Shown piece by piece: positions 103 through 26,262 of a stretch of 32,894 nt of DNA (the first letter of the stretch is position 1; each line of letters starts with the position of its first letter). The notes beneath the pieces are model-generated. The model saw only the letters and a program-made list of their open reading frames with translations. It had not been told where the DNA came from and did no database searches. The stretch is from a virus, in IMG/VR virus record IMGVR_UViG_3300028025_000859, positions 1-32,894 of that record. One strand, written 5' to 3'. A program made the translations under genes and the position numbers.

Positions 103-3100
103 TTAATCTTCATATTTCTTAATGAAAGCTAATGTACGTTCATCTTCAGACTTCTCATAGATAGCTTTTGATTTATTAATATTACCTTTAGAACCTGTAG
201 CACCATACGTCATCTGACCAATACCTTCTTTACGGGCAGCAGTCATAAGCTTAGAAGCAGTATTGTTAACGTTGTTACTAAAGTTACGTACCCATGAATC
301 CAACCTGTTAGAAGGTCCACTGAGCTTTAACATTTCTTTTGATAACAAAGCAAGCTTCTTAAACTGGCTAGGTGTAACAGCAAGATGTTGTCTGATGTGT
401 TCTCCACCCATACTGTCTGTATCAGGTATAGATCCTGGTGCTCTCCAACCATTAGCCTCTGCTTCTTTGAGCATTTGACTAATACGTTGTTGATACTTTA
501 ACCATGATTCTTGAGAGTTATATTTACGATTTAAGAACAATTCTTTATAAGCACCATCATCTTGAATACGATCGTACTGCTCATCTAAGTAAGCACCAAG
601 AGCAGGATAGTCACCTTTATCTCCGATACCTACAGGACGTGCATTGTCTTTTACTCTGTTAAATTCTGTTTCTTCAGCATCTTTAATAACCTTAGCAAAT
701 TTATCTCCAAACTTAGCAATCTGTGGGATAGCTTGAGGAATAGAAATGTTGTTGTAAGCATTACGATAGATCAAAGAGCCACCAGCAGAAGAAATAATAG
801 AGTCGTGAACCCACAAAGCAGGTGTTGGCATCTTCTTATCTTTATTAACAAACAAAGTAGTAGCTTTAACTAAGTCACCATCAATAGATTGAATAGGCAT
901 AACAACCATTTGTCGAGCTTGGCTTGTACCAATAGCATTATTGAAGGCATCATACTTCTTAGTACGAGTATCAAAGAACATTTGAACACCCTTAGTAGCC
1001 GCAGGACTAGCACCCATCTGGGTTGACTCAATCTCTATAGACTGTCCAGCAGGATTAATAAAAGTATCTGTCTCATAAGACTTATACTTAACCATAACCG
1101 TTGAACCATCTTTAAGCTTAACAGGTAATACTTCTCCAGTACTATTTGCTTTATTAACAGGAGTTACTTCTACAGGGGTTAACAAGTAAGTATCACCAGT
1201 AATACCCGGCATCATAACAGTTGTATTAAGGATTGATGTATAACGACCAATGTCTTTAAGAACTTGTGTTGACTTAGAGTTAATTACTTCACGGAGTGTA
1301 GACTCAAGTGCATCATTAAGATCACTTGCGGCTTTCTCAAGGTCATTACTATAAGCAGGACTATTAAGAAGATACTCAGCAGCTTTATCTTGGAATGAGT
1401 CAGCAAGTAATTCAACCATCATCTCTTTAAACATTGATGCATCTTTACCATAAGCATTTTGCATCAGAGGTTTCTTAAAGAATTCTTTAGCAATCTCTGC
1501 TTTACCCATATCATCTTTAAGAGACTTAAAGAAGTTCATCCAAGATGAGTTAGCTTCAGGACGATCCTTAAGAATATGCTCAAGGTTAGCTACCATAGTG
1601 TTCATAGCGTATTCACGCATGTCATCTAAGGAAGGGTTAAATGTACCTAATCGTACAGCGTTATCTGGACTACCAAAGAACAATGCTTGCAGGAAAATAC
1701 CGTTTTGATTACCGTCATCAAATGAATGATGAGTTAATGGTACATGAATACGAGCAGTAGCAGGGTTATCAAGATTGGATTTCAAATTAAACATATCAGT
1801 CCATAGATTCTTAGCACCCATAGCTTCGCCCTTCTCCATACCAGCAAGAAGAGATTGAATATTATCTGTTGCATTTTCAGGATCAACTAAGAATTGTTCA
1901 AAGTCTTTACCTAATTCAGCAAGCTTGTTACCAATATTAACATTATATTTAGCAACAATATTTGCTGGAGCTTCTTTAACAATGTTAGGGTTAGAACCAT
2001 CAACAGCAGAGAAGAAATATATAACGCTATTCAGCATAGTACCAATAGCACCACGGTCTGAAGGGCTTAATGCTTCAAGAGCTTTATTCTGTTGTTCCCC
2101 AGGCATACGAAAGATTTTAACAGCTGTTTGTTTAAGTTGTTCTACTTTTTTATCATCAAATAACTTATCACCAGTGACATAGTCTTTAGATGCAAAGCTA
2201 ATCATATCTCGGATACCATTCTTAGAACCCATGTAGTCAGTATCATAACTGTTAGGGAAGAATCGTTGGTTAGCCAAGCTATGAATCCACTCTGAATAAC
2301 GAATACCCGGAGCGTTTTTAGCATTCATAATATCAAAGTTAAGAGTTGTAAGCTTATTATTAATTACTTCTGTTGCTTGTCTATCTTGTTGAGCTTCAAA
2401 CTGGCGAACATCATCTTGATTTGATGCATCAAAGTCTTTCTTAGGTTTAGTCTTTAACTTAGCTGCAATAAAATCTTTTTCACTGACACCATTACGTTTA
2501 GCCGCCCAATGATTACTAAACTTAATCCTACCTTGTTCATCTTTTTCTAGGTACTGTTCTGCTGTGATCAAACCAAACTCGACTTCTTTATATTGAACGT
2601 CTTTAGGATTGAACATTAAACCAATAGAACCAAGAATATCTTTAGTAGCTTCAGCCGCATCCATTACAAGACCGGGTTTACGTATAGACCTCTTAGTAAG
2701 TTGTTGTCGGTTAGCTGCAAATGAAGCACCACTACGATTAGGAGTAGTACTAGACTTACGTCTACTGTAGTCACCTACAAGGGCTTCTGATGCTATCTGC
2801 AAGTCACGAGCAATGTCTTTAAGGTCAGGACTCATTTGTACTACTGGACGATCGTTAATATGGAATACTTTAATAGTACCACGATCAATAGCATCTTGAA
2901 CAATAGCCTTAGACATAGCATTGATTGCTTTAGGTGATACCTTTTTGCCAATACGATTCAGACCATTAGTAGCGAAGTGTTTAACAGAATTAATAAAGTC
3001 AAGCATATAAGTTGCATCATCAATAGATGCTCCTGAGTCCGATATAACTCTACCAGTACCTTCTTTCTCACCCTTTTCTACTTTACCTTGTGTAGCAGAC

Positions 3101-3888
3101 TTAGCTAATGATACACCAAATACAAGACCAAAGTCAGCTAATTCTTCTGGGGAAGTAAAGCCATCTTCTGCTGCAGCTTTAAGACCAGCCGCAATAAGTA
3201 CTGGTGAACCATCAGCAGAAGCCATTTCACTTTTGATACGTGCATTAGAAGTAAACAATGCATCATTTGTTTGTGATACAATATTAGCTAGTGCTGTAGC
3301 AGTCTTATCTGAGTACCTATCAATCTCATCTTCAGACATATTTTGTTTAGACATCTGACGAGCACTGGCATTGAACATAGAGTCTTGTTGACCCTGTAGT
3401 AATGAAGCAGTAGCTACTTTAGACTGACCATAAGGATCAGCAGACATACCTTGCATGGCTTCCATAGTATTTAACTGGGAAGCCTTTTCCATTTCTAATT
3501 GAGCATTGTAGTCTGTTGGGGTAATAGTACGTAGCTTAGGTAAACCTGTTTCAGGATCAACAACAGGATTACCCATAGCATCCATTAAAGGTTCTTGTAC
3601 TTCACGAGCACCAAACCTAGAACGAGAAGCTATAGCAACATCCTCAGCAGTCCTGATAGGAGGTGCTTGCATAAGCATAGCTTCAGAAGAACCAGTAGGT
3701 TGTGGTACTTCTAAAGGCTGAGGCATATATTGTTCTACTTGTGCTTGCACTACCTTATTAGGATCTTCTACTGGTGCAGGTACTTGACCCATCATATCAG
3801 TAGAAACTCCTTGTAATGCAAGTAGTTGTTCAGCAGAGATGCCCGTTCTTGGCGAGCCTAAAGGTGCAACTTTAGTTTGAATAGCCAT
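103..3888 (-). CDS. Single-subunit (T7/N4-type) RNA polymerase-like protein, probably virion-packaged
   Basis: 1261 aa, last gene of the late operon. The core motifs of single-subunit RNA polymerases occur in the right order. Motif A is DDGNQNGI, with D725 in the place of T7 D537, and is followed by an Ala-Val-x-Leu stretch like that of T7. Motif B is KEFFKKPLMQNAYG: K801, K805, Y813 and G814 keep the T7 R627/K631/Y639/G640 spacing. Motif C is ALWVHDSI, with H1028 and D1029 in the place of T7 H811-D812. R542 in LANQRFFP may be the degenerate T/DxxGR site. Spacings A to B (88 residues) and B to C (216) are near those of T7 and the N4 virion polymerase. About 500 N-terminal and 230 C-terminal residues are unassigned. 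The start is set by an AGGAG overlapping the preceding gene's stop. Its place after large ejection-type genes suggests injection with the DNA to transcribe early genes; that role is inferred. Confidence 0.78.
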   Translation of the reverse strand: MAIQTKVAPLGSPRTGISAEQLLALQGVSTDMMGQVPAPVEDPNKVVQAQVEQYMPQPLEVPQPTGSSEAMLMQAPPIRTAEDVAIASRSRFGAREVQEPLMDAMGNPVVDPETGLPKLRTITPTDYNAQLEMEKASQLNTMEAMQGMSADPYGQSKVATASLLQGQQDSMFNASARQMSKQNMSEDEIDRYSDKTATALANIVSQTNDALFTSNARIKSEMASADGSPVLIAAGLKAAAEDGFTSPEELADFGLVFGVSLAKSATQGKVEKGEKEGTGRVISDSGASIDDATYMLDFINSVKHFATNGLNRIGKKVSPKAINAMSKAIVQDAIDRGTIKVFHINDRPVVQMSPDLKDIARDLQIASEALVGDYSRRKSSTTPNRSGASFAANRQQLTKRSIRKPGLVMDAAEATKDILGSIGLMFNPKDVQYKEVEFGLITAEQYLEKDEQGRIKFSNHWAAKRNGVSEKDFIAAKLKTKPKKDFDASNQDDVRQFEAQQDRQATEVINNKLTTLNFDIMNAKNAPGIRYSEWIHSLANQRFFPNSYDTDYMGSKNGIRDMISFASKDYVTGDKLFDDKKVEQLKQTAVKIFRMPGEQQNKALEALSPSDRGAIGTMLNSVIYFFSAVDGSNPNIVKEAPANIVAKYNVNIGNKLAELGKDFEQFLVDPENATDNIQSLLAGMEKGEAMGAKNLWTDMFNLKSNLDNPATARIHVPLTHHSFDDGNQNGIFLQALFFGSPDNAVRLGTFNPSLDDMREYAMNTMVANLEHILKDRPEANSSWMNFFKSLKDDMGKAEIAKEFFKKPLMQNAYGKDASMFKEMMVELLADSFQDKAAEYLLNSPAYSNDLEKAASDLNDALESTLREVINSKSTQVLKDIGRYTSILNTTVMMPGITGDTYLLTPVEVTPVNKANSTGEVLPVKLKDGSTVMVKYKSYETDTFINPAGQSIEIESTQMGASPAATKGVQMFFDTRTKKYDAFNNAIGTSQARQMVVMPIQSIDGDLVKATTLFVNKDKKMPTPALWVHDSIISSAGGSLIYRNAYNNISIPQAIPQIAKFGDKFAKVIKDAEETEFNRVKDNARPVGIGDKGDYPALGAYLDEQYDRIQDDGAYKELFLNRKYNSQESWLKYQQRISQMLKEAEANGWRAPGSIPDTDSMGGEHIRQHLAVTPSQFKKLALLSKEMLKLSGPSNRLDSWVRNFSNNVNNTASKLMTAARKEGIGQMTYGATGSKGNINKSKAIYEKSEDERTLAFIKKYED

Positions 3889-3892: not shown

Positions 3893-6800
3893 TTACTCCT
3901 TGAGAGATTCTTTAAGTTCTTTAGCCACAATAGGAAAGCTACCAATGACAGGTGTAGCACGAGCAAGCTGTGCAGCACCTCCAGCAGTATCGCCTTGGCT
4001 AATCATATAAGCACCACGAACAGGTTTATCTGCCCATGACACTACAGGTGAAATATCTTTTAATGTTTCATAAGACCACTTAGCAGGATTGTCCAGCACA
4101 GATGGTTTGTTTTGTGGGTAAAGAGGCATAATACCATCTACTACTCGTTCATATTGTCCTAACAATCCTGAACCATAAATAGTACGTTGTATATTAGCTA
4201 CATTACCTTTAATATATGGATTCTCTTCACCATAAGCCAGTTCATCTTTAATAGCATTAGCAATCATAGAGAACAAGATAGCCATAGCTACTACAGAGAA
4301 AGCTTGATAACGCATACCAACACTACCTTCCATAATATAATTACGGTACAGTCGTGGTAACACAGTACTATGTAGACCAGCCATAAAACGAGTCATAGCA
4401 GTAATCAAACGTAGACGTGGATCATGATAGTACTTAGGTAAATTATGTGGTTGTGGATTAACAATCTTACCATCAATCATATTACCAAGAGTAGTAAGAA
4501 TATTTTCTTGTAAGAATTTAGCATTAGAATCTAATGGAAATGTTTCTTGGGTTAAACTCTTTTCAGAAAAGAATTTATAAGGATCCAAGTTTTGAGATTC
4601 AATATTATCTAATATCTGTATAACACCCATAACATCCATACCAAACTCTTGTAATTCTTTTACGGCTTGTCCTTGTTGGTTAGTTAAATTAATACCAGTA
4701 GTAATAGCTTTAACTCTATCTTCTTGAGGAATAGCCCTTAAACTTTGTAGCTTAGTAACAACAGCATCAGAAGCAAATGACAAGGATGACATACGAATAG
4801 CGTCTGTAGTAGCCCTTAAACCAATCACAGCTGCAAACACTTGCATAGACTTTCTCATGTTACTATTAGGTAACTCAAACTTAGCTTGTGTATTGTATCC
4901 TGCTTCATTGTAACCTAAATGTTCAAACAATGAACGACCAAAAGACTTACGGAATAATTCTTCTACTTGAGAAGATATTTTAGCATACTCCTTAGTATGA
5001 TCTCCGGGTTTAGATTGTAAATCATTAAGTTTATTTTCAAGATCTGCTATTTGTTTACGAATAGTAGCATGAGGACTGTATCGAGCATAAGAAATACCTA
5101 ATTGAGCAGAGCTAAATGAGGCACCAGCATTAAGATCATTCTTTAATTCTTCTTTAAGAGTACTAAAGTAAAGAGCTAATTGAGATTTAACTTGATCACC
5201 ATTAGTTCCTAGTGTAGCCATAGCTGCTTCAGCTTGAGAGCTAATAGCCGCTTTGCCTAATGAAGCTAACATAGTTAAGGTAGTACCCCAACCAATAATC
5301 TTTTCTAGCTTAGGATACTTAGTTAACGGATTATAGTTACCAGTAATGATATCATACCAGTCTCTTACATTCTTAACGGTATCCATGTACTGCTGATCAT
5401 TTTCAAATTCATTATTGTCTTTAGCTTTTTGAAGTAACTTAGATAATACTGCACCATCTTTACCAAGGAATACCTCATTAGAAATTCGGTGAGCAACACT
5501 TTCTTTTAAATTCTCCATGCTGTTAAACAAGTTAGTTTCAAACACATGATTAAGATTAGGATCAGCAAACACACCATGCTGAGACATCCAGTCTCTAGCT
5601 GATTTAGCTAAGTCAACATCACCAGAAACAATATTGTTAACTGCTTCATTAGCTTGTCTACGATTACTACCATTACTTATCATTGTGCTTATAACAGCTT
5701 CACGATTAGCCATAAGAGTAGCAGGGTGAACTGAAGAAGATTCAAACAAAGGGTTAGATGAATCTAAGTCAGAGCTTGTTGTATTAAACCTGTCAGCCTC
5801 TGTCTTCATACGAATAAGAGTAGTGTCTAGGTTATCTTTCCAGTTTTGTAATTCAATATTTTGTGGTGAAGTTGCTGGTAATTTTTGACCTTTAGACCAT
5901 GTATTTTGCCAAGATTCTTTAACCATTGTGTTAGCTGTTGATACACTAGTTTTAAGGTTACTTGCTAATTCTTCAGCAGTATTACCAGCAAAGCTACCTT
6001 GTAAACGTTGTTTAAAGCCTGAGTAATTGTCTCCGGGCAAAATACCTTTACCACCAATAATTGATTTAAGATAAGCTAAGTTAGTCTTAAATGTACCATC
6101 TTCTTTGGTAATAGAAGGTATAGCAGTGTCAACAAGTTGTCTAACAAGTCGACCAGGATCTGTAATAATAGATTTGAAACCATTCCAAGCACCTTCTAAA
6201 GCAGGTAAACTTTTTAAGTCTGGTACTGGTTTGTTTATTGGTTCATCTTTAATAGCTCTAACCATACTAACAGTATTAGCATAAGCATTAGGGTCTTTTT
6301 CTCTTGCACGTAATACTTGATCATTATTAAATGACTGTTCAGAACTTAGCTCTCTATTAAACTTACTACGAGCATCTGACAATGATTGCCATTCAGCATT
6401 GTTCTTAAGTTGTCCTGCTGTACCAAACATAGCACCCATAGTACCACCACCAATAGCGGCATCCATAAGGTTCTGATAGAAGTTACGTTCATATTGGATA
6501 TCAGTATCCCATACACCAGTAGTAGCCATCATCTCAAGATATTGTTGAGCAGATTCTGTTAAGGCTTCTCCACCAGTAGATGTTGTTACTTTAGCAAGTC
6601 CACGTAGTGCGGCTTCAGTAGAAGCATATTGTTGTTTAGCTAATGCGGCACCAGCTTTAGACATATCTACTAATTCACGCTTAGTAGCTTGTTCAATTAA
6701 GTTCATGGCTTCTGATTGTGTACTTGCTTTACCTGATTTAATTAATATATCAGTGATTTCATCTCGACCCGCTTTAGTTAGCACATTACTGCTAATCATC

Positions 6801-8080
6801 ATACCTTCAAGACCTAGCCTATCAAGCACAGCAGAACCAATACCTAATGTAACAGCTAAGTTAGCATTCTTTTTATCATCAGGTTGATCCGCATAAAATC
6901 CACCAGCATAAGCTAATGAAGTAGGAACAGTAGATAAACCATAAGCTATTAATGCAGGTATATTTGCTCCACCAGTTGCAGCAGTAGAAGCCAGCATAAG
7001 AGCTAAGCTAGGTAATGTTCCTGCAATAAGGTTACCTGAGTATGTTGCTGTATCTTTAATAGCTGACCAAGGGTCGTTAGTTCTAATATCTTTAAATGAA
7101 GTTAATGTGTCTGCTAATTCTTCTTGCCCTGCTTTAGTAGAACGAACCATTGTTTGACCTTTATCAGACAACCATTCCCATTCAGACTTATCACCAGTCA
7201 TTTGTAGTAAACCACCAAGGCTCTTATACATATCAAGAGAAGCTCTATGAAGTGTAGTACTAAACTGATCATAAGCTTGATTCATCATAGTACGATCGCC
7301 ATGACGAACCATAACACCACCAACCATATCTGGTGTAGTAGCGGCTAAATATAAACGCTCTTTAGAGGTTTGTAACTGTTGTTGCAACTTATCCCTAGTT
7401 TCAGGTTTAAGCTGTTCAGTCTTAAGTATTCTTTCTATACGAGCAATTTCTTCTTGCTCTGCTTTAGCCGCAGGAATACCTGTAGAATTCTTAATTGCAG
7501 CATAAAGCTTTTCATCTTGTACATTTATTTTAGGTACATACAAGGGGTTACCACCAGCTTTAGCAATAGCTTCTTCTTTACGTTCACGAGCAAGTCGTAA
7601 CATAGGATCGGCATTTGTTAGCTCAGGCATTACCCTTGAGATAGCATTTAATGTAGCATTTCTTTGTACTGCTTCATCTGTACTGTGTAAGTTAGTCCTT
7701 TGCAGTCCTAGTGCTGTGAGTGTATCACCAAGTGACTCACCTAACTTATTAGTTTGTCGAGCTAATACTCGATTATAAGGGTCTCTACCCTCTGTTTCAA
7801 GATTAGTATATCCACCTAACTGTGCAATAGTATTTACATCCTCTTGAGATGTATCATTCTTTACTTGGTTAGGTACGAATATACCACCTTGTAACTTCGC
7901 TGTCTCAGGGGCATTAAATCCCCTAAGACGATATGAAGTGTTACCAACCTTAACCGTATCAGGATCAATTATTTTAACATTGGAATCTACAGGCTTACCA
8001 TCTATTGTGGTGACCGGAGACCCTGCAACGTTCTTATTAGCAAGTGCTAATGCTCGTGCGTCTTCTTCTAATGTGCTCAT
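3893..8080 (-). CDS. Large internal virion/ejection protein with N-terminal SNase-like nuclease domain
   Basis: 1395 aa. Residues about 33-130 match the staphylococcal nuclease fold: DPDTV (D41, equivalent of SNase D21), [10 protein letters not shown] (R51 for R35, E59 for E43) and RDPYNRVLA (R104 for R87). The Ca2+ ligand D40 is replaced by N56. After a helical, charged section come hydrophobic stretches at about 345-397 (including [16 protein letters not shown] and [14 protein letters not shown]), near 930 and near 1270. The C-terminal 200 residues ([44 protein letters not shown]) resemble the C-terminal part of large polyvalent/internal proteins of podoviruses. The likely role is an ejected protein that forms or lines a channel across the cell envelope, carrying a nuclease into the cell. 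It lies 18 bp after the 986-aa gene and 4 bp before the polymerase gene, with an AGAGGA ribosome site. The nuclease domain is well supported; its activity is uncertain. Confidence 0.75.
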
Positions 8081-8098: not shown

Positions 8099-11059
8099 TT
8101 AAATATTACCACCAGTTGTTTTTAACCAGTATAACATGGGTGTTGATCCAGACACGCCTTTAGACATGTCAGAAAACTTTTTCTTATCAGCAGTGCTTAA
8201 ACTGTTCCAACGCTTTTCGATTTGCTCGCTAGCTTGATCTAACGGAATACCTTGTTGCTTATATACATCTAGTGCATTACCTAAAGCAACTTGATATTCG
8301 GCAGAAGGTAATTGTAATTTTCCTTTATCACCTTTAGTTGCATAAAGATCACGACTACTTTCTTTCATACGAGTTTCAATAACAGCATTACCAAAGAAAG
8401 CTTTACGCAAACCTTCTTCTGTCAATGATGCATTACCTTTTGCCATAGCAAAATCAATAGCAGATGATACTGCGTTCTCAGACATTTTAGCAAAAGAAGT
8501 TGGTGAAATATTAGGACCTAAATCTTCTTTAAGTAACAACAAACTTTGTGTGTATTTATCAGCTTCAGCATTAGCATCATAACCTTTTTGCTTACCAAAA
8601 GCATTCTTAAGAGGAGATACTAAACGCTTAGTTGTTGCACTCTCCATCTCTTTACGATTTCTACTGTTGTCTTCTGCAGATTCAAAACGTTTTAAGTCTA
8701 ATGGGTTAATTGTTTCCCATTCACCTTTAGTATTTACTCTTTGAACTTCACCTTTAAAATTTCTAAATTGAATTGGCTTACCATCAAAGAATCCTTGAGA
8801 AACATTACCGGGCTTTGCCGCATCTTTATCTTCAACATTCTTATTAGATTTAAGAAGATTAATAACAGCACGTTGTTTAGCTTCGGTATCTGCTTGGCTG
8901 TACAATTCCATAGCTTGCTTACGAACATTTGCAGGAACATTTTCACCAAGAGCAGTGCGGTAATCACTGTCTAATCGTTCACGTAGTTCACGAGTGTTCT
9001 TAACAGACTCTGCACGAGCAGCAGCTTCAGTAGCTTGTCGTTTTTCAGCAGATTGCAATGTGTTTAGTCCAGCAAACTTAAGTGATCCACCAACAGAACC
9101 GCCTGTAAGCAGACCACCAGCGGCTAACAAAGAAAACTTAATTAGCTCTTGATCACCAAACAAACCTGATTTACCAAACAAACCAGATAAAGCTCTTTCA
9201 AGAAAGTTCTTTTGTTGAACTGGATCAGGAATTTTTTGTGCTTCTGCTTTAGCGGCTTCAACTTGAGGAGCAACTTGTTGAGAGTATTGAGCAAGCATTG
9301 TATTAAACTTTGGGTCATCTACCGGCTTATCATTAACTGTCATAACAGATTCTGGTTTAGGAATATCAGGAACAATATCAGGAACTGGTTGTGAAGCTTC
9401 TATTTGTTTATTAATCTTTTCAGGTAATACATTTGATCCAGTTACTTGACGAATACGCTCTTGGTTAGTCATTGTTCCTGTTGGAATTACTGGCTCTCCA
9501 TTACGAGTTATACGATTGATTTCTGAATAAGCCCACTTCTTATCGTTAGCTGTAATAGATGGATCATTAATAATTTCGCTTAATCTAATAAGATCTTGCT
9601 GATCTTTATTAAACAAAGGTGCTTCTTTTAAAGGAGGTACTTGAGTAGGTGTTGACCCCGAATCCATTATGTTATCACGAGCAAAAGAAAAACCAGAACG
9701 TTTAGCTGGAACTTGTGGAATAGACACAGGTACGGGTACTGCAACTTCAGCAACAGGCAATGTTCCAGCTTGTGCTGATGGGATAATATCTGTAGCTGTT
9801 TGTGCTAAAGACTTACCAGCTTTAGTTGCTTTTTCAGCAATAAACTTTTTAAAATCACCAGCTGTTTTACCAAAATATTTATTTTGTTTTAATTCATTTT
9901 CAGTAAAATGTTTAGCTAATAATTCATCATCTTTAGCCGCAATAGCTGATACACCTCGAGGACCAAATCCAGCAGCATAAAGATTTTCTACTGTTAAAGG
10001 TAAACCTTTTTTCTTAAGTTGTTTTGCATAATCATCATACTGAGTATCAGACAATTCTCTTTGGAATTCAGGTTTAAAATAAGCTTCAGAGTTATGTGCA
10101 ACACCCTGTAATTTAGGATTTATCTTTTGATACAAAGGTAATGTACCCACAGTAGTTCCTGTAAGGCTAGAAGCTGTTTGATTAAGTTGTGGGTTCTTTG
10201 CTTTAGGATCATTAGATGCTTCAGCAAAAGATCTCATCTTAAAAAAATCTTCTTTAGATACTTCATTAGGATTGTTTGAAGCTAACGGTGCAACAGGTTG
10301 TGTTGCAGGGATTTGCTGACCTCCTAAGAAATTAAGAAATCTGTCTACATAAGATACATTCTCAGTACCGTCATCATACCCTGCAGCAGACTGTACCTGT
10401 TGTGGTACTACACCATATGTACCATTAGAGTAATTAGCTTGAGCAGAAGAGCCACGGCTAAAGTCAAATACATTCATTGTGCCATGCATGAATGAAGATC
10501 CGGGTACGTCTGGATGCATGTATGCTAATGATGGAACACCGCTAGTACCGTCTGCATGATACTTAGCCTGTCCAGGAGCATCTGAATAACGTACATCTAC
10601 TGCACCGTCACGCATATTAGCCTTACGACCTTCTTGTACCATACGCCTAATAGCTTTTTTATTCTTAGGATCTTGTGCTGCAGCACGAGGAATAACAGCT
10701 TCTCCGGGAGTTAACATAGCAGGAACTGTATCAGTACCTTGTGCTTGGAATATAGGTTGTGGTAAATTACGTTGACCTTGTTTAAACATACCAGTGCCAG
10801 CTAAAGGATTTTGAGTTGGAATACCCAACTTCTGTTTGTTCATTTTAGGAGGAGGAATACCCATATCCTTAAGTTTAGCATTATTAACTTGTTCTTTATG
10901 ACCTAAACCTTGATTAGCTTTTGCAGCTGCTTCCTGAAGTTTAATCTCATGTAATTGTTGTTTACGACTTTCGTCAAGTCCCATCTTAGCCGCTTCACGG
11001 GCTTCTTTATTTTGAAACTTGAGGTACTCTCTTTGTTGTTTACCTGATAATGGTGCCAT
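8099..11059 (-). CDS. Large virion protein with LTPGE motif and possible lysozyme-like segment
   Basis: 986 aa. The N terminus is a charged, probably helical segment (1-65). VPAMLTPGEAVIPRAAAQ (112-129) is the LTPGE motif often seen in phage tape-measure and internal virion proteins. Four copies of a short G-T-x-x-V motif follow (about 168-235). Residues about 309-415 (with GLPLTVENLYAAGFGPRGV) resemble the C-terminal part of transglycosylase-like domains in phage virion proteins, but no clear catalytic glutamate site is seen, so it may be degenerate. A hydrophobic Ala/Gly/Leu stretch near 636-655 could insert in a membrane; the rest is Lys/Glu/Ala-rich and probably helical. It precedes the nuclease-fusion and polymerase genes and is probably the third large ejection protein, a counterpart by position of the T7 gp15/gp16 group. 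The start has an AAGGAA site. The exact function is not recognised. Confidence 0.6.
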   Translation of the reverse strand: MAPLSGKQQREYLKFQNKEAREAAKMGLDESRKQQLHEIKLQEAAAKANQGLGHKEQVNNAKLKDMGIPPPKMNKQKLGIPTQNPLAGTGMFKQGQRNLPQPIFQAQGTDTVPAMLTPGEAVIPRAAAQDPKNKKAIRRMVQEGRKANMRDGAVDVRYSDAPGQAKYHADGTSGVPSLAYMHPDVPGSSFMHGTMNVFDFSRGSSAQANYSNGTYGVVPQQVQSAAGYDDGTENVSYVDRFLNFLGGQQIPATQPVAPLASNNPNEVSKEDFFKMRSFAEASNDPKAKNPQLNQTASSLTGTTVGTLPLYQKINPKLQGVAHNSEAYFKPEFQRELSDTQYDDYAKQLKKKGLPLTVENLYAAGFGPRGVSAIAAKDDELLAKHFTENELKQNKYFGKTAGDFKKFIAEKATKAGKSLAQTATDIIPSAQAGTLPVAEVAVPVPVSIPQVPAKRSGFSFARDNIMDSGSTPTQVPPLKEAPLFNKDQQDLIRLSEIINDPSITANDKKWAYSEINRITRNGEPVIPTGTMTNQERIRQVTGSNVLPEKINKQIEASQPVPDIVPDIPKPESVMTVNDKPVDDPKFNTMLAQYSQQVAPQVEAAKAEAQKIPDPVQQKNFLERALSGLFGKSGLFGDQELIKFSLLAAGGLLTGGSVGGSLKFAGLNTLQSAEKRQATEAAARAESVKNTRELRERLDSDYRTALGENVPANVRKQAMELYSQADTEAKQRAVINLLKSNKNVEDKDAAKPGNVSQGFFDGKPIQFRNFKGEVQRVNTKGEWETINPLDLKRFESAEDNSRNRKEMESATTKRLVSPLKNAFGKQKGYDANAEADKYTQSLLLLKEDLGPNISPTSFAKMSENAVSSAIDFAMAKGNASLTEEGLRKAFFGNAVIETRMKESSRDLYATKGDKGKLQLPSAEYQVALGNALDVYKQQGIPLDQASEQIEKRWNSLSTADKKKFSDMSKGVSGSTPMLYWLKTTGGNI

Positions 11060-11068: not shown

Positions 11069-12016
11069 TTAAAATATTCCTAGCTTTTTAGCTAACAATG
11101 CTCCACCAATGACCATACCTACAGGTCCCATAGCGGCTAATGCGGCTTCACCACCAGCCATTGCTGCTCCCGATGCTCCTGCAGTTGTTGCGGCAGTAGC
11201 TCCAGCATTAGCAACAGTAGCGCCTGTTTGGGCAGCAGCTGATAGCGGTGCAGCAGTATAAGCTTTGTATGCTGTGTCAATTCCTTTAGTAGCGGCATCA
11301 ACACCTTTGCCCATTAACATAGAACCTAATTGTTGTTCTGTACGATCAGGCATACGACCCATAGCTTGCTCGTTAGATGGTCTGATCTCTGCGGCTAATG
11401 GTGCAGACACAGGTTGGGCATTAGCCCATGACCATGGATCATCATCAACACGCATGCTACCGTTGTAATAGCCGGGAACTGACATAGTACCGTTAGCCCA
11501 ACCGGGAGCATCACCTACCCCAACAGATCCACCAGCAGTACCGTCACTACTACCACCTTCACTTGGTGCAGATACGCCTTCAGAGATAGATGCGTCATCA
11601 ACCGCTAATCCAAGAGCATTTTCAGCAAGACCTTCTGCCGTAGCTCCTGTGTTACCAATAGCAGTTAAAGATACGTCAGGAATAGACAGATTAGCAGGTG
11701 CGGCTAACCCAGTAATACTGTTTACTGTGTTATTATCTGATACAGTATTACTATCAGAAGTTGTTCCACCATTATTTCCATCACCACCAGAGCTTCCACC
11801 GTCTGTTACAGTTGTATCTTTAGAAAGAGGTGCTACATAATCTTTTGTATAATTGTTTAAATACGTTTTACCATAAACAATAGGTGTGTTCATAGCAGTA
11901 GTTAATGGTCTACCCATAGCATCTACTGTTGTACCACCACCTTTTCCACCACTTGCTTGTTGAAGGGCGGCTTCTTTATTATAAGCATCTGCTGTTGCGC
12001 CTTGAATACCAGCCAT
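11069..12016 (-). CDS. Small Gly/Ala/Ser-rich virion-associated protein
   Basis: 315 aa, low complexity: a Gly/Ser/Asp/Asn/Thr-rich middle (about 70-175), then WANGTMSVPGYYNGSMRV, two copies of the G-[TS]-x-x-V motif that also occurs four times in the next protein. The C terminus is Ala/Gly-rich and hydrophobic (AMGPVGMVIGGALLAKKLGIF is the last 21 residues, given here only as its tail GALLAKKLGIF), a pattern common at the end of small phage core or ejection proteins that may touch the membrane. The start overlaps the previous stop in a TAATG junction, so translation is probably coupled. By position it could be a T7 gp14-like or P22 gp7/gp20-like small ejection protein. No enzymatic motif is seen, so the call rests mainly on context and composition. 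Confidence 0.45.
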   Translation of the reverse strand: MAGIQGATADAYNKEAALQQASGGKGGGTTVDAMGRPLTTAMNTPIVYGKTYLNNYTKDYVAPLSKDTTVTDGGSSGGDGNNGGTTSDSNTVSDNNTVNSITGLAAPANLSIPDVSLTAIGNTGATAEGLAENALGLAVDDASISEGVSAPSEGGSSDGTAGGSVGVGDAPGWANGTMSVPGYYNGSMRVDDDPWSWANAQPVSAPLAAEIRPSNEQAMGRMPDRTEQQLGSMLMGKGVDAATKGIDTAYKAYTAAPLSAAAQTGATVANAGATAATTAGASGAAMAGGEAALAAMGPVGMVIGGALLAKKLGIF

Positions 12017-12705
12017 TACTTACCTCCAGTCGCCTGTTGTCGTGCAGGATTACCATAAATAGTTGATGCATAACGTTGAAGACCTTGGAATGTAGCATCA
12101 AGACCTTGTTGATCAATATTTCGTTGTTGATTACCAAGGTTAGCAATACTAGATACCCCACCTGATGCAATACCAGAAGCTGTTTGAGCACCTGACTGTA
12201 ATGCAGACTCAGCGGCAAGACGATTCTTAAACATGTTAGACTCATAGTCAGCATCAACCTTAGCAAGCTGACCTGTAGTTTCAGCGTTCTGAGCGCCTTG
12301 CATAACAGCTTGTCGTGCTGATCCTAAAGTACCAGCTGAACCAAAGCCTGTATTTAATCCTGCTACTTTCTTTTGTGCATCTTGAACAATAGCTGCTTTA
12401 GTAGCGGCTAATGTTTCAGCACTAGGTGATGTTGCCATAGTAGACAATCTTTTATTTTGATCACCTAAAGAACTAAGAGCAGTAGAGGTAGTAGCACCAA
12501 GCATATTAGCACCTTCACCAAATGCTTTTTGTTGTAGTGTAGATGCACCAGCAACCTTACTTAACTCACCTGCACCATAAGATTGTTCAGCGGCATTACC
12601 AACATTTTTCATATACGGAGCAGCCCATTCAGGAATACTACTTACTGTATTGCCACCACCGCCACCGTAGTTCTTCTTAATAGAACCATTAATTTTATAT
12701 TTCAT
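12016..12705 (-). CDS. Probable internal virion (ejection) protein, Ala/Gly/Ser-rich
   Basis: 229 aa. A short basic N terminus with a poly-Gly tract (YGGGGGN) leads into IPEWAAPYMKNVGNAAEQSY, then a long Ala/Gly/Ser/Gln-rich stretch with probable amphipathic helices (AATKAAIVQDAQKKVAGL, then QAVMQGAQNAETTGQLAKVD). The opening 'glycines, then PEWAAPYMKNV' pattern is typical of small internal/ejection proteins of podoviruses from aquatic samples. It overlaps the GNAT-like gene at TAATG, and a ribosome site (AAAGGA) lies just upstream. It is followed by the 315-aa protein and the three large ejection-type proteins, which fits an internal core or tail-needle role. The function is inferred from context; no catalytic motif is visible. 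Confidence 0.45.
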   Translation of the reverse strand: MKYKINGSIKKNYGGGGGNTVSSIPEWAAPYMKNVGNAAEQSYGAGELSKVAGASTLQQKAFGEGANMLGATTSTALSSLGDQNKRLSTMATSPSAETLAATKAAIVQDAQKKVAGLNTGFGSAGTLGSARQAVMQGAQNAETTGQLAKVDADYESNMFKNRLAAESALQSGAQTASGIASGGVSSIANLGNQQRNIDQQGLDATFQGLQRYASTIYGNPARQQATGGK

Positions 12706-13121
12706 TATAAATCCTTTCGCATTACTACGTAAGCTTCTTTAAATCCGGGTACATACTTTGGTAGTACCTTTGCCCATCCTGGACGACCCCATTGTTCAAT
12801 GGCTTTACAACCAGAATCACGGGCAAACTGTTCTACAGTAGGAAAAACCTTAGACTGTTCTTCAAAGTTATCACCAGCAAAAGCAATAATATGAAGGGTT
12901 TTATGTTGTGAATATTGTAAGTACTGAGTTAAACCAGCACCAATAATATTTAAATCATTATCTACTAACGCCCAACATTGAACGTACTCATTAAGAATCT
13001 TTTTAAGATAGTCTGTTAATGTAGATTCTCCTTGTCCATGATCAATTACTTTCTGTAATAGTACAGAGAGTGTTGACCAATGTTGTACGGTTTGTTCAGG
13101 TGTTAGTAGAATGATTTTCAT
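12705..13121 (-). CDS. GNAT-fold acetyltransferase-like protein (T7 gp13-like position)
   Basis: 138 aa, the same length as T7 gp13. The layout suits a GNAT fold: an N-terminal helix pair, then beta strands (CWALVDNDLNIIGAGLTQYL, KTLHIIAFAGDN), a helix (FPTVEQFARDSGCKAIEQWG) and a C-terminal GRPGWAKVLPKYVPGFKEAYV, which matches the end of phage GNAT-like proteins found beside tail and ejection genes. The acetyl-CoA pyrophosphate loop (Q/R-x-x-G-x-G/A) is not obvious, so catalysis is doubtful and a structural or assembly role is possible. It overlaps the long fibre gene by 4 bp (ATGA) and the next gene by 1 bp. Confidence 0.6.
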   Translation of the reverse strand: MKIILLTPEQTVQHWSTLSVLLQKVIDHGQGESTLTDYLKKILNEYVQCWALVDNDLNIIGAGLTQYLQYSQHKTLHIIAFAGDNFEEQSKVFPTVEQFARDSGCKAIEQWGRPGWAKVLPKYVPGFKEAYVVMRKDL

Positions 13122-16100
13122 TTGTTTTCTAATTCGTTTATACGAGTTGTTAATTGATTTACTTTAATATTTAATTCTTGTACTGCTTTAGTTAATACAC
13201 TGATCAATCCAATGTAGTCAAGACTCTTAATACCGTTCTCATGTGTTTGATTAAGTGAATCATTAGTATCTGTAACAAGAAGTTGAACATCATCAGCTAA
13301 GAACCCGTGGAACTTAGTTGTTTGTTCAATATCGCTACGAGTAAATGTTACTGGTCTGAGCTTAGTTACAAAGTCTAATCCAAGGGCTTCATCTTGTATA
13401 TCATCTTTAAGACGTTTATCGGATACAGCCTGTAATGTTAATGTATTACCACTACCAAAGAAGTTGTATGTACCAACAAGACCTGTACCTGTTATGATAT
13501 TCATACCAGATCCAGCAGCATTAGCACCACCAAAGCCGGGGTTACCATTAAAGATACGACCCCATGATCCGGGTCCATAGCCACCTAATGCGGCAGAGTC
13601 TGCAGCTTGACCAGATGTACTTAATGGTGTATAACCTAAAGCACCTGTAACATTACCACTTGTAAGAGATAATGAACCACCAAGAGTTAAATTACCTGAT
13701 GTTGTAACAGTTCCACTAAGAGACAAACCAGACACAGTACCTGTACCACTTACACTAGTAACAGTTCCTGTACCACCAGTTGAAGGAGTTGACCAAGTAC
13801 CGTCACCACGTAAGAACGTAGATGAGCTTGGTGAACCACCATTCTCACCTAATGCGGCTCTAACTTCTGACATAGTTGCCCATGTACGAGCACCAGAAGC
13901 AGTAGCTAAAATACGGTTACCACTAGACGATACATTAGAAGCTAATGCAGTACTATTAAGCTGAGTAAAGTCTGTTAAAGAACTTACATAGGCTAATGCA
14001 CCAAGACCTAATGATGACTGCAGAGCAGACACTGTAGGTGTATTAAGTGTAAGGTTACCTGTAGACGTTACTGTACCAGTTAAAGAAAAACCTAAACCAG
14101 AGCCTGTTCCACTAACTGACGTAACACCACCTGAAGTTATAGAAGCCCATGTACCATCTTGTCTAAGATAACCAGTACCACCAGAAGTAGGAGCTGTAAT
14201 AGCCGCTGAACCCCAGTTAAATATTCCCCATGGAGCAACTGATGTACCTAAGTTCATCCTTGTTCCTGATGAAGCATTACCAGAGAAATTAGGACCGGGA
14301 GTTGTACCTGCTGTGCCTGCGTTAACTAATACACCAGCACTATAAGTACTTGTACCAGAATAACCAGCGGCAAGAACTATATTAGAAGCATTAGTAGCAA
14401 ATCCAGGAGATGTAATACCTGCTAGATTACTTGTAAACCTTGCGTTAGTAGCACCAGTCTCATTACTAAACAAATCAAAACCATTAATTGTAATATTGCT
14501 ATTACCATTAACAGCAGTACCATTAGCCGCATAGTAAGCTACTTGTCCTGAGTTACCTGTGTTAACAGTACCAGAACCAGAAACTACTGGAGGAGTAAAT
14601 GTAAGTACACCTGATGTGTTGTTGTATGCAAGAGCGCCTGAACCAAAGGCAGAAGCAGTTGTAACACTTAATGGGTGAACGTGATCACCACGAGCAAACT
14701 TAGTTGCTGAACCTGTAGCTGCTGTACCTGAAGCATTTGGTACTGTAGTGTAACCATAGTCTAAACCAGATAAATCTGTTAGTGTTGGAGTTTGTAAACC
14801 ACTCTCAAATCTATTAACAGAGTTTGTTGTGTATGCGTCTACTGCACTATCAAAAGCACAACCAGTTAAATCAATAGTACAGTTGGTATTAGCAATAGTT
14901 GGTCTAGCACCAGTTGGGGTATAGCCTCCTAAACCCTTAAATCCACATCCAGTAATAGCTACTTTAAAACCACTACCTGATGTTGCTTCAAGTTTAATAT
15001 TATTAGTAGCATAAGCAATAGGAGGAGTAGAACCAACACGGTTAAACGAACAACCTGTAATAGCATTACTTACTCCGGGCTTAGCAAATGTACTTGTTGC
15101 ATACAAGTCAGCAATACCTAAGTTACCTTCAAAGTAAACACCTGATAAGTTAAATCCAACAGAGGATTCAATAGCTGTATTACCTGATGGTTCTGCAATA
15201 CGTAGACCCCAGTTGTTAACGTCTCCTGTTGTTGTACCATTAACCTCAATAGCACCACCAATCATGTTGAACACACCGGGACCGTTTACAAAAATACCAT
15301 AAAGACTGTTAACACCAAACTCACAACCAAACATATTAATTGCATTAGGTGAAGTAGCATATTGACCTGATACAGGTATACGCTCAAACAATGCACCACG
15401 AAGATTAAACCTGAAAAAACAAGAATCAAAGTTAGATGTTAAAAAGTTAGCACCGTATACACCATAACCCCAGTTAGTAAAGAAACAAGATTTAAAATGA
15501 AAGAAAGCACCACCAGAAATAGATATTCCACGGCTGTTATCTCCTCCTGATCCTACAAAGGTTAAATTTTCAACCATAGTGTAAACATTAGGATTAACAA
15601 GGATAGGTGGAGTAGCGCTAGGATTACCTGTATTACAAGCTAATGATAAAGCAGTAGCTCCTGCTGTAGTTTGGTATATACTAGAAGCATTAATACCATC
15701 ACCTAAAAAGTGAACTCGAGCATAAGGGTCTGCATTAGCTGGTGATGTGTATGTTAACGAGCTGGTAATTCTATAAGTACCATTAGGGAAGTATACTACA
15801 CCACCTGTAATTGTAGCCGCATTAATAGCTGATTGAATAGCTGATGTATCGTCTGTGCTACCGTTACCTATTGCACCATAAGCTTTAACATTATATTGAT
15901 GCTCATAAGCAGTTACAGTAGACCAGACACCATCACCACGAAGAAAGTTAGTGTTAGTTGCTGTACCAGAACCTAAAGACGTTACAGGAATTTGACCACT
16001 ATAACCAAGAGCCAATGTACCATTAGCAGTTAATGGAGAGCCTGTTACAGAGAATCCTGTTGGAGCAGTTAAAACAATATTAGTAATACCACCAGACGCA

Positions 16101-18844
16101 CTTGTAACACCCCATGTACCGTTACCACGTAATACTTTATTTACGTCATTAGGAGGAGGTTGAACACGTACAACAGTAGAACCACCATAGATAGGATCTG
16201 TACCATTATTAAGAACACCTGTGTAAGCATTCATAGTAGCAGTATTAGTACCTGATGCTAAACCTACAGTAGCTCTTCTAAATGTTATAACAGTAGAATT
16301 TATTGTTCCAGAAGCAGTAACAGCCCATTTGTTTTCAATGTTAGAAGCAATAGCATCAGCAAGTTGTTGTGTTGTGTTTAGTAATTCTGAATCATACTCA
16401 AGATAAAAATTATAATTACTATTTTCTAAAGTTACATTAAATACTAATGAGCCTTCTGTTTCAAAATTAAACGAAGGCATTGTTATGCTAGCATAAGTAC
16501 CCGGAGTAACAACACCACTACTGTCTGAAGGTAAATCAAAACCTCGGAAATAACCAATACCTGATTTAGTTCCTGCTGTTCCTGATGTACCGGATACACC
16601 ATCAAAAGCGTAACCATTACCTGAGCCGCCAGCAAAAAAAGCCGCACCAGTACTTGAGCCATTAAGCGCCATAAACACTGGGTTAGTATGACCTGAACCT
16701 ACAACATCTACACGAAAAGCCGCATCAGGATTACTATTATTATTTAATGCACCGTAATAAAGTCTACCATTACCACTTGAAACAGCTGATAAACCATTAC
16801 CAGTACCACTAGTATTAGCAGTAAGACCTGAACCTGTGTTAGCAGAATAATCAAGCCAAATAGGGTTAGTTACACCAGCACCACCACTAATACCAATAAC
16901 AGCATTAGTAACGTCTGATCCACCACCACCACCCATAGTAAGAAACTTTGAATTAGCGGAGTCATATGCAGATATCCTGTTGTCTCGTACTGTTGTTGAT
17001 GGAGGCACAAGACTGTTAATCTCAATACGTTGACCTGTTGTTGCTGTTTTAAAACCTGAGGTTTGAATCTCACCAGCAGTTACTGTACCGATGTTAGCAG
17101 TAATAGCAGACAAAGCACTAACAGAAAGTTTACTTGCTGTAATTGTATTCTCTACAATAAGAGAACCAGTAATATAAGAAGTAAATAAAGTCCAACCAAC
17201 TGAAAAACGATATACAGCTGCTAAATTAAAATTATTATAACTAACTGTTGCAATATCTCCAGCTACTGGAGTGCGACCAATAGCGGCAAGTACTTCAGGG
17301 TTGGTAGGCTCTCCACCATCATTAGCTACACGAGTAATAACAAAAGTAGCTGAACCTGCACCACCAGTAGCACCATTAGCACCGTTATAAGCAATACCTC
17401 TAATAGGATTACTTACGTTAGTCCAGTCAAGAGTAGAAGATACAACAGTAGCCGCTTCATTTAATGGAACAGTAATACTCCATAAATAATATCCCGCAGT
17501 TGTTTCACTAGGAGCAGATGTGTACCAATCTGTAGGTGGTGTATAAGCTCCTGTAGCCCATGTATATGTAGACGTTGTTGTAGGTCTTGCTGGAGGAGTA
17601 GAGTTAGCTGTCCATCTGTATATTGATGGGAACGCAGACATAACCCCGTTAGCACCTGCTTGACCCGGAACACCATTGTATACTACAGGCATACTAATAG
17701 TTTTACTTAATGGGCTTGCAAGGTTAGAACCGTTAACTGTTAATGTAACATCTACTTTAGTTGCAGCAGATAATGGAGTAACTGTAATAGTACTCAAAGA
17801 ACCTGATGCAGGGGTGGCACCACTAACAGACCAGCTATATGTAGGACTTGTAACATTAGTTGTAAGGGCAGTTAATACAGCGTTAGGTGGTGTAAATGCA
17901 CCACTAGACGCTTGTACAAAAGAAGTATAACCAGATATATCTATTGATGGTCCACTTGTACCTGTTGCACCTTGTGTTCCTGGATCAGAAAACACTAATT
18001 GAAGACTTGCGACACTAGACTGAGTAACTACACCAGCACTATCTTTATAACGAATAGGTACTGAGATTGTAGCTGGACTTGATGCCATAGCAGAGGGTGC
18101 AGGGAACTGAGCGTATGAACCTGCGTCTGTAGGAGACCCCATTGTAATATTAGTATAGCTAATGTCTGCAAGACCTGTAGTTGAGCTTGCACCAATACGC
18201 CATGTATTGTTTGTAAATGCAGCGTCTGAGTCAGTTGTTGCTCCTGAATACTGTACAATAGTATTTTGGTTAGTAGCGTATACACGAGGTGTAACGTTAG
18301 TAAACACAGGAGCTAATGGGTTACCTGCTCTTGGTACCTGCATTGTAGCAGGAGTAAAGAAAGATAAGAATGTACTTGCACCAGCAGACACAGGAGCCGA
18401 AGTAACAATATCTAAATCAATAGATACTCCGGGTTCTTGTAACCAACTTGTAGCAGGTGCTGTAGTACTAACTGAGAAGTTGATCTTACGACCACCTACA
18501 GATAAATACCACAAGAACTTTGTTGTACCAAACCCACCAGTAACTTCAAACCAACGGTAGTCCGCAGGGTTATTTGACTCAACAGAAGAGTCTGAATTCT
18601 TTAAACCATAGTATAGTCTGTTGGTAGGCACATTAGATATGTTAGTACCAACATTATCATCAGCATACTTAACAGCAATATATTTATATAAGTATGCTAC
18701 AAGGTTACCAAATTGATCACTAATAACACCAGTAGTAAGATCAGCACTTAGACCATCAGAGCCGCCACCAGACGTTCCTTCAAGAACAAGTTGTGCTAAG
18801 AAAGCATCTAGCTCTTTGTCACCAGTAATAGGTGGATTAAACAT
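13118..18844 (-). CDS. Long tail fibre/tailspike with beta-helix and self-cleaving S74 chaperone
   Basis: 1908 aa from the chosen start. The N-terminal domain (KYIAVKYADDN, NPADYRWFEVTGGFGTTKF) is of a type seen in phage tip and fibre proteins. Ig-like and short collagen-like Gly repeats follow (near 395 and 490), then a lambda-J-like segment near 575 (NTITASKLSVSALSAI). Residues about 975-1350 are a pectate-lyase-type right-handed beta-helix beginning YNVKAYGAIGNGSTDDTSAI, typical of polysaccharide-binding or -degrading spikes. FARGDHVHP near 1385 is a common fibre motif. The C terminus is a peptidase-S74 chaperone: SDKRLKDDI has S1808 and K1813 in the dyad spacing of endosialidase S911/K916, so it should trimerise the fibre and cleave itself off before S1808. 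The end is a leucine-rich coiled coil. GGAGGT sits 3 bases before the Met at 18844; an earlier in-frame Met at 18874 lacks such a site. Confidence 0.85.
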   Translation of the reverse strand: MFNPPITGDKELDAFLAQLVLEGTSGGGSDGLSADLTTGVISDQFGNLVAYLYKYIAVKYADDNVGTNISNVPTNRLYYGLKNSDSSVESNNPADYRWFEVTGGFGTTKFLWYLSVGGRKINFSVSTTAPATSWLQEPGVSIDLDIVTSAPVSAGASTFLSFFTPATMQVPRAGNPLAPVFTNVTPRVYATNQNTIVQYSGATTDSDAAFTNNTWRIGASSTTGLADISYTNITMGSPTDAGSYAQFPAPSAMASSPATISVPIRYKDSAGVVTQSSVASLQLVFSDPGTQGATGTSGPSIDISGYTSFVQASSGAFTPPNAVLTALTTNVTSPTYSWSVSGATPASGSLSTITVTPLSAATKVDVTLTVNGSNLASPLSKTISMPVVYNGVPGQAGANGVMSAFPSIYRWTANSTPPARPTTTSTYTWATGAYTPPTDWYTSAPSETTAGYYLWSITVPLNEAATVVSSTLDWTNVSNPIRGIAYNGANGATGGAGSATFVITRVANDGGEPTNPEVLAAIGRTPVAGDIATVSYNNFNLAAVYRFSVGWTLFTSYITGSLIVENTITASKLSVSALSAITANIGTVTAGEIQTSGFKTATTGQRIEINSLVPPSTTVRDNRISAYDSANSKFLTMGGGGGSDVTNAVIGISGGAGVTNPIWLDYSANTGSGLTANTSGTGNGLSAVSSGNGRLYYGALNNNSNPDAAFRVDVVGSGHTNPVFMALNGSSTGAAFFAGGSGNGYAFDGVSGTSGTAGTKSGIGYFRGFDLPSDSSGVVTPGTYASITMPSFNFETEGSLVFNVTLENSNYNFYLEYDSELLNTTQQLADAIASNIENKWAVTASGTINSTVITFRRATVGLASGTNTATMNAYTGVLNNGTDPIYGGSTVVRVQPPPNDVNKVLRGNGTWGVTSASGGITNIVLTAPTGFSVTGSPLTANGTLALGYSGQIPVTSLGSGTATNTNFLRGDGVWSTVTAYEHQYNVKAYGAIGNGSTDDTSAIQSAINAATITGGVVYFPNGTYRITSSLTYTSPANADPYARVHFLGDGINASSIYQTTAGATALSLACNTGNPSATPPILVNPNVYTMVENLTFVGSGGDNSRGISISGGAFFHFKSCFFTNWGYGVYGANFLTSNFDSCFFRFNLRGALFERIPVSGQYATSPNAINMFGCEFGVNSLYGIFVNGPGVFNMIGGAIEVNGTTTGDVNNWGLRIAEPSGNTAIESSVGFNLSGVYFEGNLGIADLYATSTFAKPGVSNAITGCSFNRVGSTPPIAYATNNIKLEATSGSGFKVAITGCGFKGLGGYTPTGARPTIANTNCTIDLTGCAFDSAVDAYTTNSVNRFESGLQTPTLTDLSGLDYGYTTVPNASGTAATGSATKFARGDHVHPLSVTTASAFGSGALAYNNTSGVLTFTPPVVSGSGTVNTGNSGQVAYYAANGTAVNGNSNITINGFDLFSNETGATNARFTSNLAGITSPGFATNASNIVLAAGYSGTSTYSAGVLVNAGTAGTTPGPNFSGNASSGTRMNLGTSVAPWGIFNWGSAAITAPTSGGTGYLRQDGTWASITSGGVTSVSGTGSGLGFSLTGTVTSTGNLTLNTPTVSALQSSLGLGALAYVSSLTDFTQLNSTALASNVSSSGNRILATASGARTWATMSEVRAALGENGGSPSSSTFLRGDGTWSTPSTGGTGTVTSVSGTGTVSGLSLSGTVTTSGNLTLGGSLSLTSGNVTGALGYTPLSTSGQAADSAALGGYGPGSWGRIFNGNPGFGGANAAGSGMNIITGTGLVGTYNFFGSGNTLTLQAVSDKRLKDDIQDEALGLDFVTKLRPVTFTRSDIEQTTKFHGFLADDVQLLVTDTNDSLNQTHENGIKSLDYIGLISVLTKAVQELNIKVNQLTTRINELENK

Positions 18845-18845
18845 T

Positions 18846-20396
18846 TTACCTCCGATCAGCAGGTTTAGCTTCAAGAGCCATCATAGCCAGCCGCCAATAA
18901 TTAGTTGCAGTAATTCTGTAGTTAAGTACACGACCATTAACCCGTGGGTCAACCTTATAGCCTTGTGACTTGTCATTGTTAGGTAGGAATGTAAATGTGT
19001 CTTTTAATGCGGCATCATCTACAGATAAATCTACGTTTCTAACATAATTGTTTTGTCCTACAACCCTAATAGTAATATTAGAATCATTAGGTACAGTATC
19101 AAACACAGGGTACAGAGAAGTAATTAAAGAACTTCCTGTAACATCACCTGAATTAAGTTTCTTTTTCTCTATATAAGAAGTATAAGACGCTAATGCAGTA
19201 CCATTCCACATTTGATAAGCATCAGACTCTACAAGAGTTGTTGTTGTAGTTGTTGTAAAGTATACTACTTCTTTACCATACTGAAATGCGTTAGACACAT
19301 TTGATGGACCAAAGAAAGAGTATGTCATGTTAGTAGCTTGACGTTTAGACCATGTATTGTTTTTATAATTATAAACAAGAACTTCGTTACATACTGTAGA
19401 AGACCCTTTAGGATAGTTAATCCAGATCTCTTTATAGAAAGCATGTCTTGTTACATGAACTTTGTCAATAGCATTCTTATTTAAATTATTATAAAAATAC
19501 TTTTTAATTCTGAAGTCAGCAAGGGAATCAATTTGACCTGAACCATTGTGTAAGTAAATATCATTACGGTCAACAACAAAATGTTTGCCATCAAACTCAC
19601 ATACACAGTCTACAGATAAGATTCCATAAGACCGACTATAAGGAACAACTCGTGTTCCATTAATTCCAATAGACAATATACTAATACTGTCTGAGGAATA
19701 TATAAACATGTTACCTCTCAACTCAGCCATATCTAATATGGGAGATGTAGAGTTAACTTCAAATTCGTCTGCGGTATCTGTAGCAGTAGTTGGTTCCCAT
19801 TGGTTAGGGATAGCGCCTGTAGCGGCTTGAGCAGATACTCTTACTGTGCTTGGTGCATATGTTGTAACGCCAGTAGTGCTGTTAGCAATAGTGAGGTTAG
19901 CGGCAACAAGAGAGTAGTTAAGTGACCTAACAACCTTAGCTGTAATAGTTAAACCAGCTGAATAGTTCCAGTTAGGAAGTGGGAGAAATGCAGAGTCAGC
20001 ATTGATGTCTCCATATAAACAATATATAGGTGTTGTTCTACCATTGTTAAGTACAATAGCATAACCACCATTAAACAAGGTTCCTTGCCAATCACTGTTT
20101 GTATAAGAGCCACCAGTACCAGCATACATAGTAGACTGGTTACCAGCAGCATCTACACGAACAACATTACCATCTTTAGCAAAGATGTTATAACCTTGGT
20201 CTGGACGTCTCCAATGAATTCCATAGTCAGGAGAAATAGAGACTGTTCTGTATATAGATTCACCTGTAATTGTTGATACTGCTTCATCATCAAAGCGTAC
20301 ATTGAGTACGTCTGTGAATGTATTTTGAGGTACAATCATAGGAGGTAAGTCTGTATTAAGACCGCCTTTACCTAGCTGTTCGATTGGAATTGCCAT
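18846..20396 (-). CDS. Tail hub/nozzle (head stabilisation) protein, P22 gp10-like
   Basis: 516 aa. It begins MAIPIEQLGKGGLNTDLPP, the usual opening of P22 gp10-like stabilisation/nozzle proteins of podoviruses. Beta-rich repeats follow, consistent with a propeller-like fold: ELRGNMFIYSSDSISILSI, VVPYSRSYGILSVDCVCEFD, HFVVDRNDIYLHNGSGQID, then an IWINYP strand and VLVYNYKNNTWSKR. In this family the protein forms the lower tail tube below the adaptor and holds the fibres. The gene stops 1 bp before the 1908-aa fibre start (TAAAATG) and starts 21 bp after the endolysin stop, with an AAAGGAT site. The placing of the lysis genes between the fibres and this hub gene is notable. The family call is by motif recognition, not alignment. 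Confidence 0.75.
   Translation of the reverse strand: MAIPIEQLGKGGLNTDLPPMIVPQNTFTDVLNVRFDDEAVSTITGESIYRTVSISPDYGIHWRRPDQGYNIFAKDGNVVRVDAAGNQSTMYAGTGGSYTNSDWQGTLFNGGYAIVLNNGRTTPIYCLYGDINADSAFLPLPNWNYSAGLTITAKVVRSLNYSLVAANLTIANSTTGVTTYAPSTVRVSAQAATGAIPNQWEPTTATDTADEFEVNSTSPILDMAELRGNMFIYSSDSISILSIGINGTRVVPYSRSYGILSVDCVCEFDGKHFVVDRNDIYLHNGSGQIDSLADFRIKKYFYNNLNKNAIDKVHVTRHAFYKEIWINYPKGSSTVCNEVLVYNYKNNTWSKRQATNMTYSFFGPSNVSNAFQYGKEVVYFTTTTTTTLVESDAYQMWNGTALASYTSYIEKKKLNSGDVTGSSLITSLYPVFDTVPNDSNITIRVVGQNNYVRNVDLSVDDAALKDTFTFLPNNDKSQGYKVDPRVNGRVLNYRITATNYWRLAMMALEAKPADRR
18848..18853 (-). promoter_or_regulatory. Ribosome binding site that sets the start of the 1908-aa fibre
   Basis: GGAGGT on the minus strand lies 3 bases before the ATG at 18844 and partly within the stop region of the hub gene. 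The upstream in-frame ATG at 18874 has no comparable site and would overlap the hub gene by 29 bp, so the internal start is preferred. Confidence 0.75.
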
Positions 20397-20417
20397 GAGA
20401 TATCCTTTTTATTACTA

Positions 20418-23596: not shown

Positions 23597-23622
23597 GTAG
23601 CCTCCTTGAATTTAATTTTCAT
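23593..23622 (-). CDS. Possible 9-codon leader ORF coupled to the adhesin gene
   Basis: Between the 333-aa and 401-aa genes, an AAAAGGA site precedes an ATG, 9 codons (MKIKFKEAT) and a TGA that overlaps the 401-aa start as ATGA. The ribosome site of the 401-aa gene (AAGGAGG) lies inside this mini-ORF. It may be a coupling minicistron or simply an accident of an AT-rich spacer. No protein function is claimed. Confidence 0.25.
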   Translation of the reverse strand: MKIKFKEAT

Positions 23623-23633
23623 ATTATTTCCTT

Positions 23634-24635: not shown

Positions 24636-24644
24636 ATTGTCTCC

Positions 24645-26253: not shown

Positions 26254-26262
26254 GTTATGTCC

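Follow-up and report, generated by a model that had tools for sequence, protein, structure and literature searches.

The question raised by this locus is whether the large protein encoded by the last gene of a marine phage's late operon is a further structural component of the particle or an RNA polymerase carried within it. The window analyzed here is a stretch of 32,894 nucleotides (IMG/VR record IMGVR_UViG_3300028025_000859). A preliminary description, made from the sequence alone, read the product as a compact virion RNA polymerase. Its open reading frame was present at positions 103 to 3888 with an ATG start and a cysteine-free product of 1261 amino acids, and its strand is corrected here to minus. 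Within the structural operon, which runs on the minus strand, the gene is the most distal and follows those for two other large proteins; the window stops 102 bases past it. The same position at the end of the late operon, as originally proposed, was seen in a ~61-kb relative (G005) whose contig appears nearly whole. The gene order in G005 is terminase, portal, scaffold, capsid, tail genes, ejection cluster and the polymerase-like gene, followed by an opposite-strand replication module that encodes a T7-like RNA polymerase, a primase-helicase and a DNA polymerase.

Eight residues (R542, D725, K801, K805, Y813, G814, H1028, and D1029) had been nominated as parts of polymerase motifs before any homologue was seen, and each was found at its cited position in the translation. 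Motif A (FDDGNQNGI, residues 723-731) is encoded at 1696-1722, motif B (KEFFKKPLMQNAYG, residues 801-814) at 1447-1488 and motif C (WVHDS, residues 1026-1030) at 799-813, all on the minus strand. Motif C is preceded by an IQSID block (residues 999-1003; 880-894, minus strand), whose Q1000 and D1003 are invariant in the family. The aspartates of motifs A and C and the K-x7-Y-G of motif B occur in the order of the single-subunit RNA polymerase superfamily, and by these motifs the predicted protein belongs with that superfamily.

The relatives of the protein in IMG/VR comprised close ones with 72-95% identity, one with 55% and a group with 22-25% that includes gp33 of Roseobacter phage CRP-7, the cultured homologue. 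A later scan detected further branches of the family, whose cores are 38-48% identical to that of the window protein; no family members were found in bacterial or archaeal genomes. Seven of the eight nominated residues were invariant in 13 relatives with identities down to ~22% and the eighth, K805, was lysine or arginine (hypergeometric P of 3.6e-6, given 13% invariant columns among 13 sequences). When the comparison covered 21 members, R542, D725, Y813, H1028, and D1029 were invariant in all covering sequences, K805 was again lysine or arginine, and G814 was glycine or serine. K801, in the position of the catalytic arginine of N4 (R666) and T7 (R627), was lysine in 16 of the 21 members and serine or alanine in the other five. 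Motif A was altered to DARQSN in the CRP-7 group. R542 (2263-2265, minus strand) was invariant first in 13 and then in 21 members and lies outside the profile alignment described below; it is still a candidate for the T/DxxGR arginine. Judged by sequence, the two aspartates and the core of motif B hold throughout the family, and motif B lacks its first basic residue in some members.

Comparison of a profile of the family core with one of 12 Schitoviridae virion RNA polymerases (vRNAPs) by hhalign gave a single local alignment (probability 88%) that brought motifs A, B, and C into register. Residues 607-1032 (793-2070, minus strand) aligned with residues 428-954 of the N4 mini-vRNAP with a score of 61.8 and a P of 3.1e-6, a value that, like the other hhalign P-value given here, refers to one chosen comparison and is not database-corrected. 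The alignment paired D725 with N4 D559, K805 and Y813 with K670 and Y678, D1029 with D951 and IQSID with IGTGD. The best score among 200 column-shuffled profiles was 29.5. First runs with gapped alignments gave no matches or weak, split ones, and the single alignment came from clean match columns. A deeper, 22-row profile repeated the match (score 57.4, P of 1.8e-5, null maximum 26). When the vRNAP profile was run against 18 protein families of these phages, only the polymerase-like family (58.6) and the T7-like RNA polymerase (40.1) exceeded ~24. The family scored 17.6-17.7 against the phages' own T7-like RNA polymerase, weaker than against N4. Used alone in HMMER, the Schitoviridae vRNAP profile recognized the CRP-7 group by motif C and the window group by motif B, each about as strongly as it recognizes T7 polymerase itself. 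Motif C is VHDA in several other Schitoviridae, which resembles the VHDS and IHDA of the present family. The protein gave no match to PF00940, the T7-like RNA polymerase model. The homology of the central region (residues ~607-1046) to N4-type vRNAPs is supported by these comparisons, and the protein is likely an N4-type polymerase homologue.

The resemblance to N4 gp50 and other Schitoviridae vRNAPs extends from the motifs and the IQ/IGxxD block before motif C to the lack of cysteine, the position as last late-operon gene beside other ejection proteins and the presence of a second polymerase in the phage. In contrast, N4 gp50 is a three-domain protein of ~3500 amino acids, and no signal of its N- and C-terminal domains was detected in the 1261-aa protein or in the neighboring large proteins. 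The major capsid protein of N4 belongs to phrog_1357, whereas that of the present phages is phrog_1328, a type common to many podoviruses of the LUZ24/phiEco32 sort; by capsid, these phages are not Schitoviridae.

Two large cysteine-free proteins, probable partner ejection proteins, are encoded next to the polymerase-like gene, one of 1395 amino acids (3893-8080, minus strand) and one of 986 (8099-11059, minus strand); CRP-7 gp34 and gp35, respectively, are in the equivalent places. The cluster continues with a cysteine-free protein of 315 amino acids (11069-12016, minus strand) and a cysteine-free DNA-ejection-protein homologue of 229 (12016-12705, minus strand; phrog_4287, E 1.8e-4). The five adjacent proteins contain no cysteine in 4186 amino acids, for which a simple model using the average of the G005 open reading frames gives a chance of ~3e-17. 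Cysteine is also absent from the N4 vRNAP (3500 amino acids) and its 66-kDa and 16.5-kDa neighbors, from T7 gp15 and gp16 and from CRP-7 gp33, gp34, and gp35. T7 gp15 and gp16 are likewise large, and their genes occupy the corresponding part of the late operon. The companion T7-like polymerases (PF00940, phrog_414), which share the superfamily motifs and are encoded separately by these phages, contain 11-14 cysteines. A cysteine-free set fits proteins that pass through the tail. Packaging of the putative vRNAP is indirectly supported by its position in the ejection cluster, its lack of cysteine and the separate T7-like polymerase.

Several other features of the window stood out. The N-terminus of the 1395-aa protein (7601-8080, minus strand) appeared staphylococcal-nuclease-like by eye (the stretch includes DPYNRVLA), and Pfam and PDB searches gave no match to it. 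A tail-fibre-like protein of 1918 amino acids (13118-18874, minus strand) has a TTG start that overlaps the upstream gene and ends in a DKRLKDDI stretch, which we take to be typical of self-cleaving intramolecular chaperones. Four glycine-rich proteins with a common layout and similar endings (GSGIVIIRY...HTFTSSGTF), encoded at 22391-27294 (minus strand), are apparently a paralogous tail-fibre array.

A PF00940 T7-like polymerase was detected in 13 of 15 and seven of nine records (20 of 24 overall). Its absence from some records and from the window means little because the contigs are short and the window ends so soon after the gene. N4 also has two polymerases, vRNAP and RNAPII (PMC12633501); unlike in N4, the second polymerase here is a one-chain, T7-like enzyme. 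A promoter-like motif, GGTACCTAATAG, was found once in the window (20415-20428, minus strand), upstream of the gene at 18846-20396. The general form, GGTACCTA[AT]TA[GC], with the long form TAGCCGGTACCTAATAG, occurred three to six times per genome in three relatives (G005, G002, and G004; L063-L073), mostly in intergenic positions on the transcribed strand and in early and late modules alike, and was not found in CRP-7. Because it serves both modules, we assign the motif to the companion T7-like polymerase, as its probable promoter. Repeated hairpin promoters of the N4 type, with a 3-nt loop, were not found in the genomes examined. Two genomes share one unrepeated hairpin with an 8-bp stem, a 9-nt loop and one compensatory end pair, followed by GGGGACAATCCGTCCAT. 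It directly precedes the first early gene (L065 17617-17641, which is G005 57617-57641; L068 7968-7992, which is G002 27968-27992) and is a candidate early promoter or RNA element. A conserved block rich in G and T also lies in the divergent region that separates the early module from the terminase (G005 58000-58450; G002 28400-28720; minus strand).

Together, we consider it probable that the gene product is a compact RNA polymerase of the single-subunit, N4 virion type, a natural mini-vRNAP that is ejected to start early transcription. The alternative that survives best, although we regard it as unlikely, is a protein that descends from an N4-type vRNAP and has lost polymerization but not ejection, for example one with an inner-membrane role like that of T7 gp16 while the host polymerase makes the first transcripts. 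The loss of K801 in five of 21 members, the altered motif A of the CRP-7 group, the other polymerase carried by the phages and a cysteine-free protein in the position of T7 gp16 agree with such a descendant, but both catalytic aspartates, the lysine or arginine and tyrosine of motif B and the histidine of motif C are invariant or conservatively changed over relatives with only ~22% identity, a pattern difficult to reconcile with a protein that does not catalyze. T7 gp16 is not known to have polymerase motifs. An ordinary podovirus ejection protein with polymerase-like motifs by chance would account for the lack of matches to RNA polymerase models in Pfam, PHROGs, and NCBIfam and to PDB sequences, and for AlphaFold2 models, made from 15-row alignments, too poor to read a fold (pLDDT of 49 for the window protein and 40 for the CRP-7 relative). 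Chance is very improbable, however, when residues nominated without an alignment turn out to be invariant and the profile match is far above those of shuffles and of 16 other families of the same phages. Least credible is a palm enzyme of another kind, for example a relative of the family A DNA polymerases. Those enzymes have motif B (K/R-x3-K-x7-Y-G) in common with the single-subunit RNA polymerases, but motif C here is HDS or HDA rather than HDE in all sequences that reach it, motif A (DDGNQNG) resembles ADGVTNG of N4, the family profile did not match the DNA polymerase of the phages themselves (score 17.4), and relatives already encode a complete DNA polymerase.

The evidence on balance favors an active, packaged early polymerase. 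For such an enzyme we infer the following scheme of packaging, ejection, catalytic activity, order of transcription and use of sites by the two polymerases. The core would be about the size of the active mini-vRNAP of N4, without the N- and C-terminal thirds of the 3500-aa protein. The polymerase would be made late and packed with the two large cysteine-free proteins (1395 and 986 amino acids), and all three would pass unfolded through the short tail, after which the polymerase would refold inside the cell. There, the putative enzyme would start transcription by transcribing the first genes from the entering DNA, among them the T7-like RNA polymerase gene, and the T7-like polymerase would then use GGTACCTAATAG-type promoters to transcribe the middle and late genes. 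It seems likely, at a somewhat lower level of confidence than for the gene itself, that the phages are a ~58-64-kb podovirus lineage with LUZ24/phiEco32-type capsids and two single-subunit RNA polymerases, one T7-like and the other an ejected N4-type enzyme naturally pared down almost to its catalytic core.

No publication describing this protein family as a polymerase was found in the open-access literature. The paper on CRP-7 mentions no RNA polymerase other than ORF30 (PMC6918029), gp33 is recorded as hypothetical, and a 2025 structural study called the giant vRNAP unique to Schitoviridae (PMC12633501). Outside Schitoviridae, a vRNAP was earlier suggested for large proteins of F116-like phages and for Stenotrophomonas phage StenR_269, in the latter from its size, its content of helices and the absence of cysteine (PMC10747016; PMC5217972). 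As candidates for further vRNAPs, neither the StenR_269 protein nor the F116 proteins scored with the Schitoviridae profile or that of the present family, which differs from them in having the catalytic motifs.

A vRNAP of 3500 amino acids has to pass through a ~35 Å tail and is kept inactive by its C-terminal domain. A natural version one third the size, in which no such domains were detected, would reduce ejected transcription to a minimal system, and a cultured phage that carries gp33, Roseobacter phage CRP-7, makes the family open to testing. If the proposed function is true, Schitoviridae are not alone in having virion RNA polymerases, and the giant flanking domains are not needed for packaging, ejection or control.
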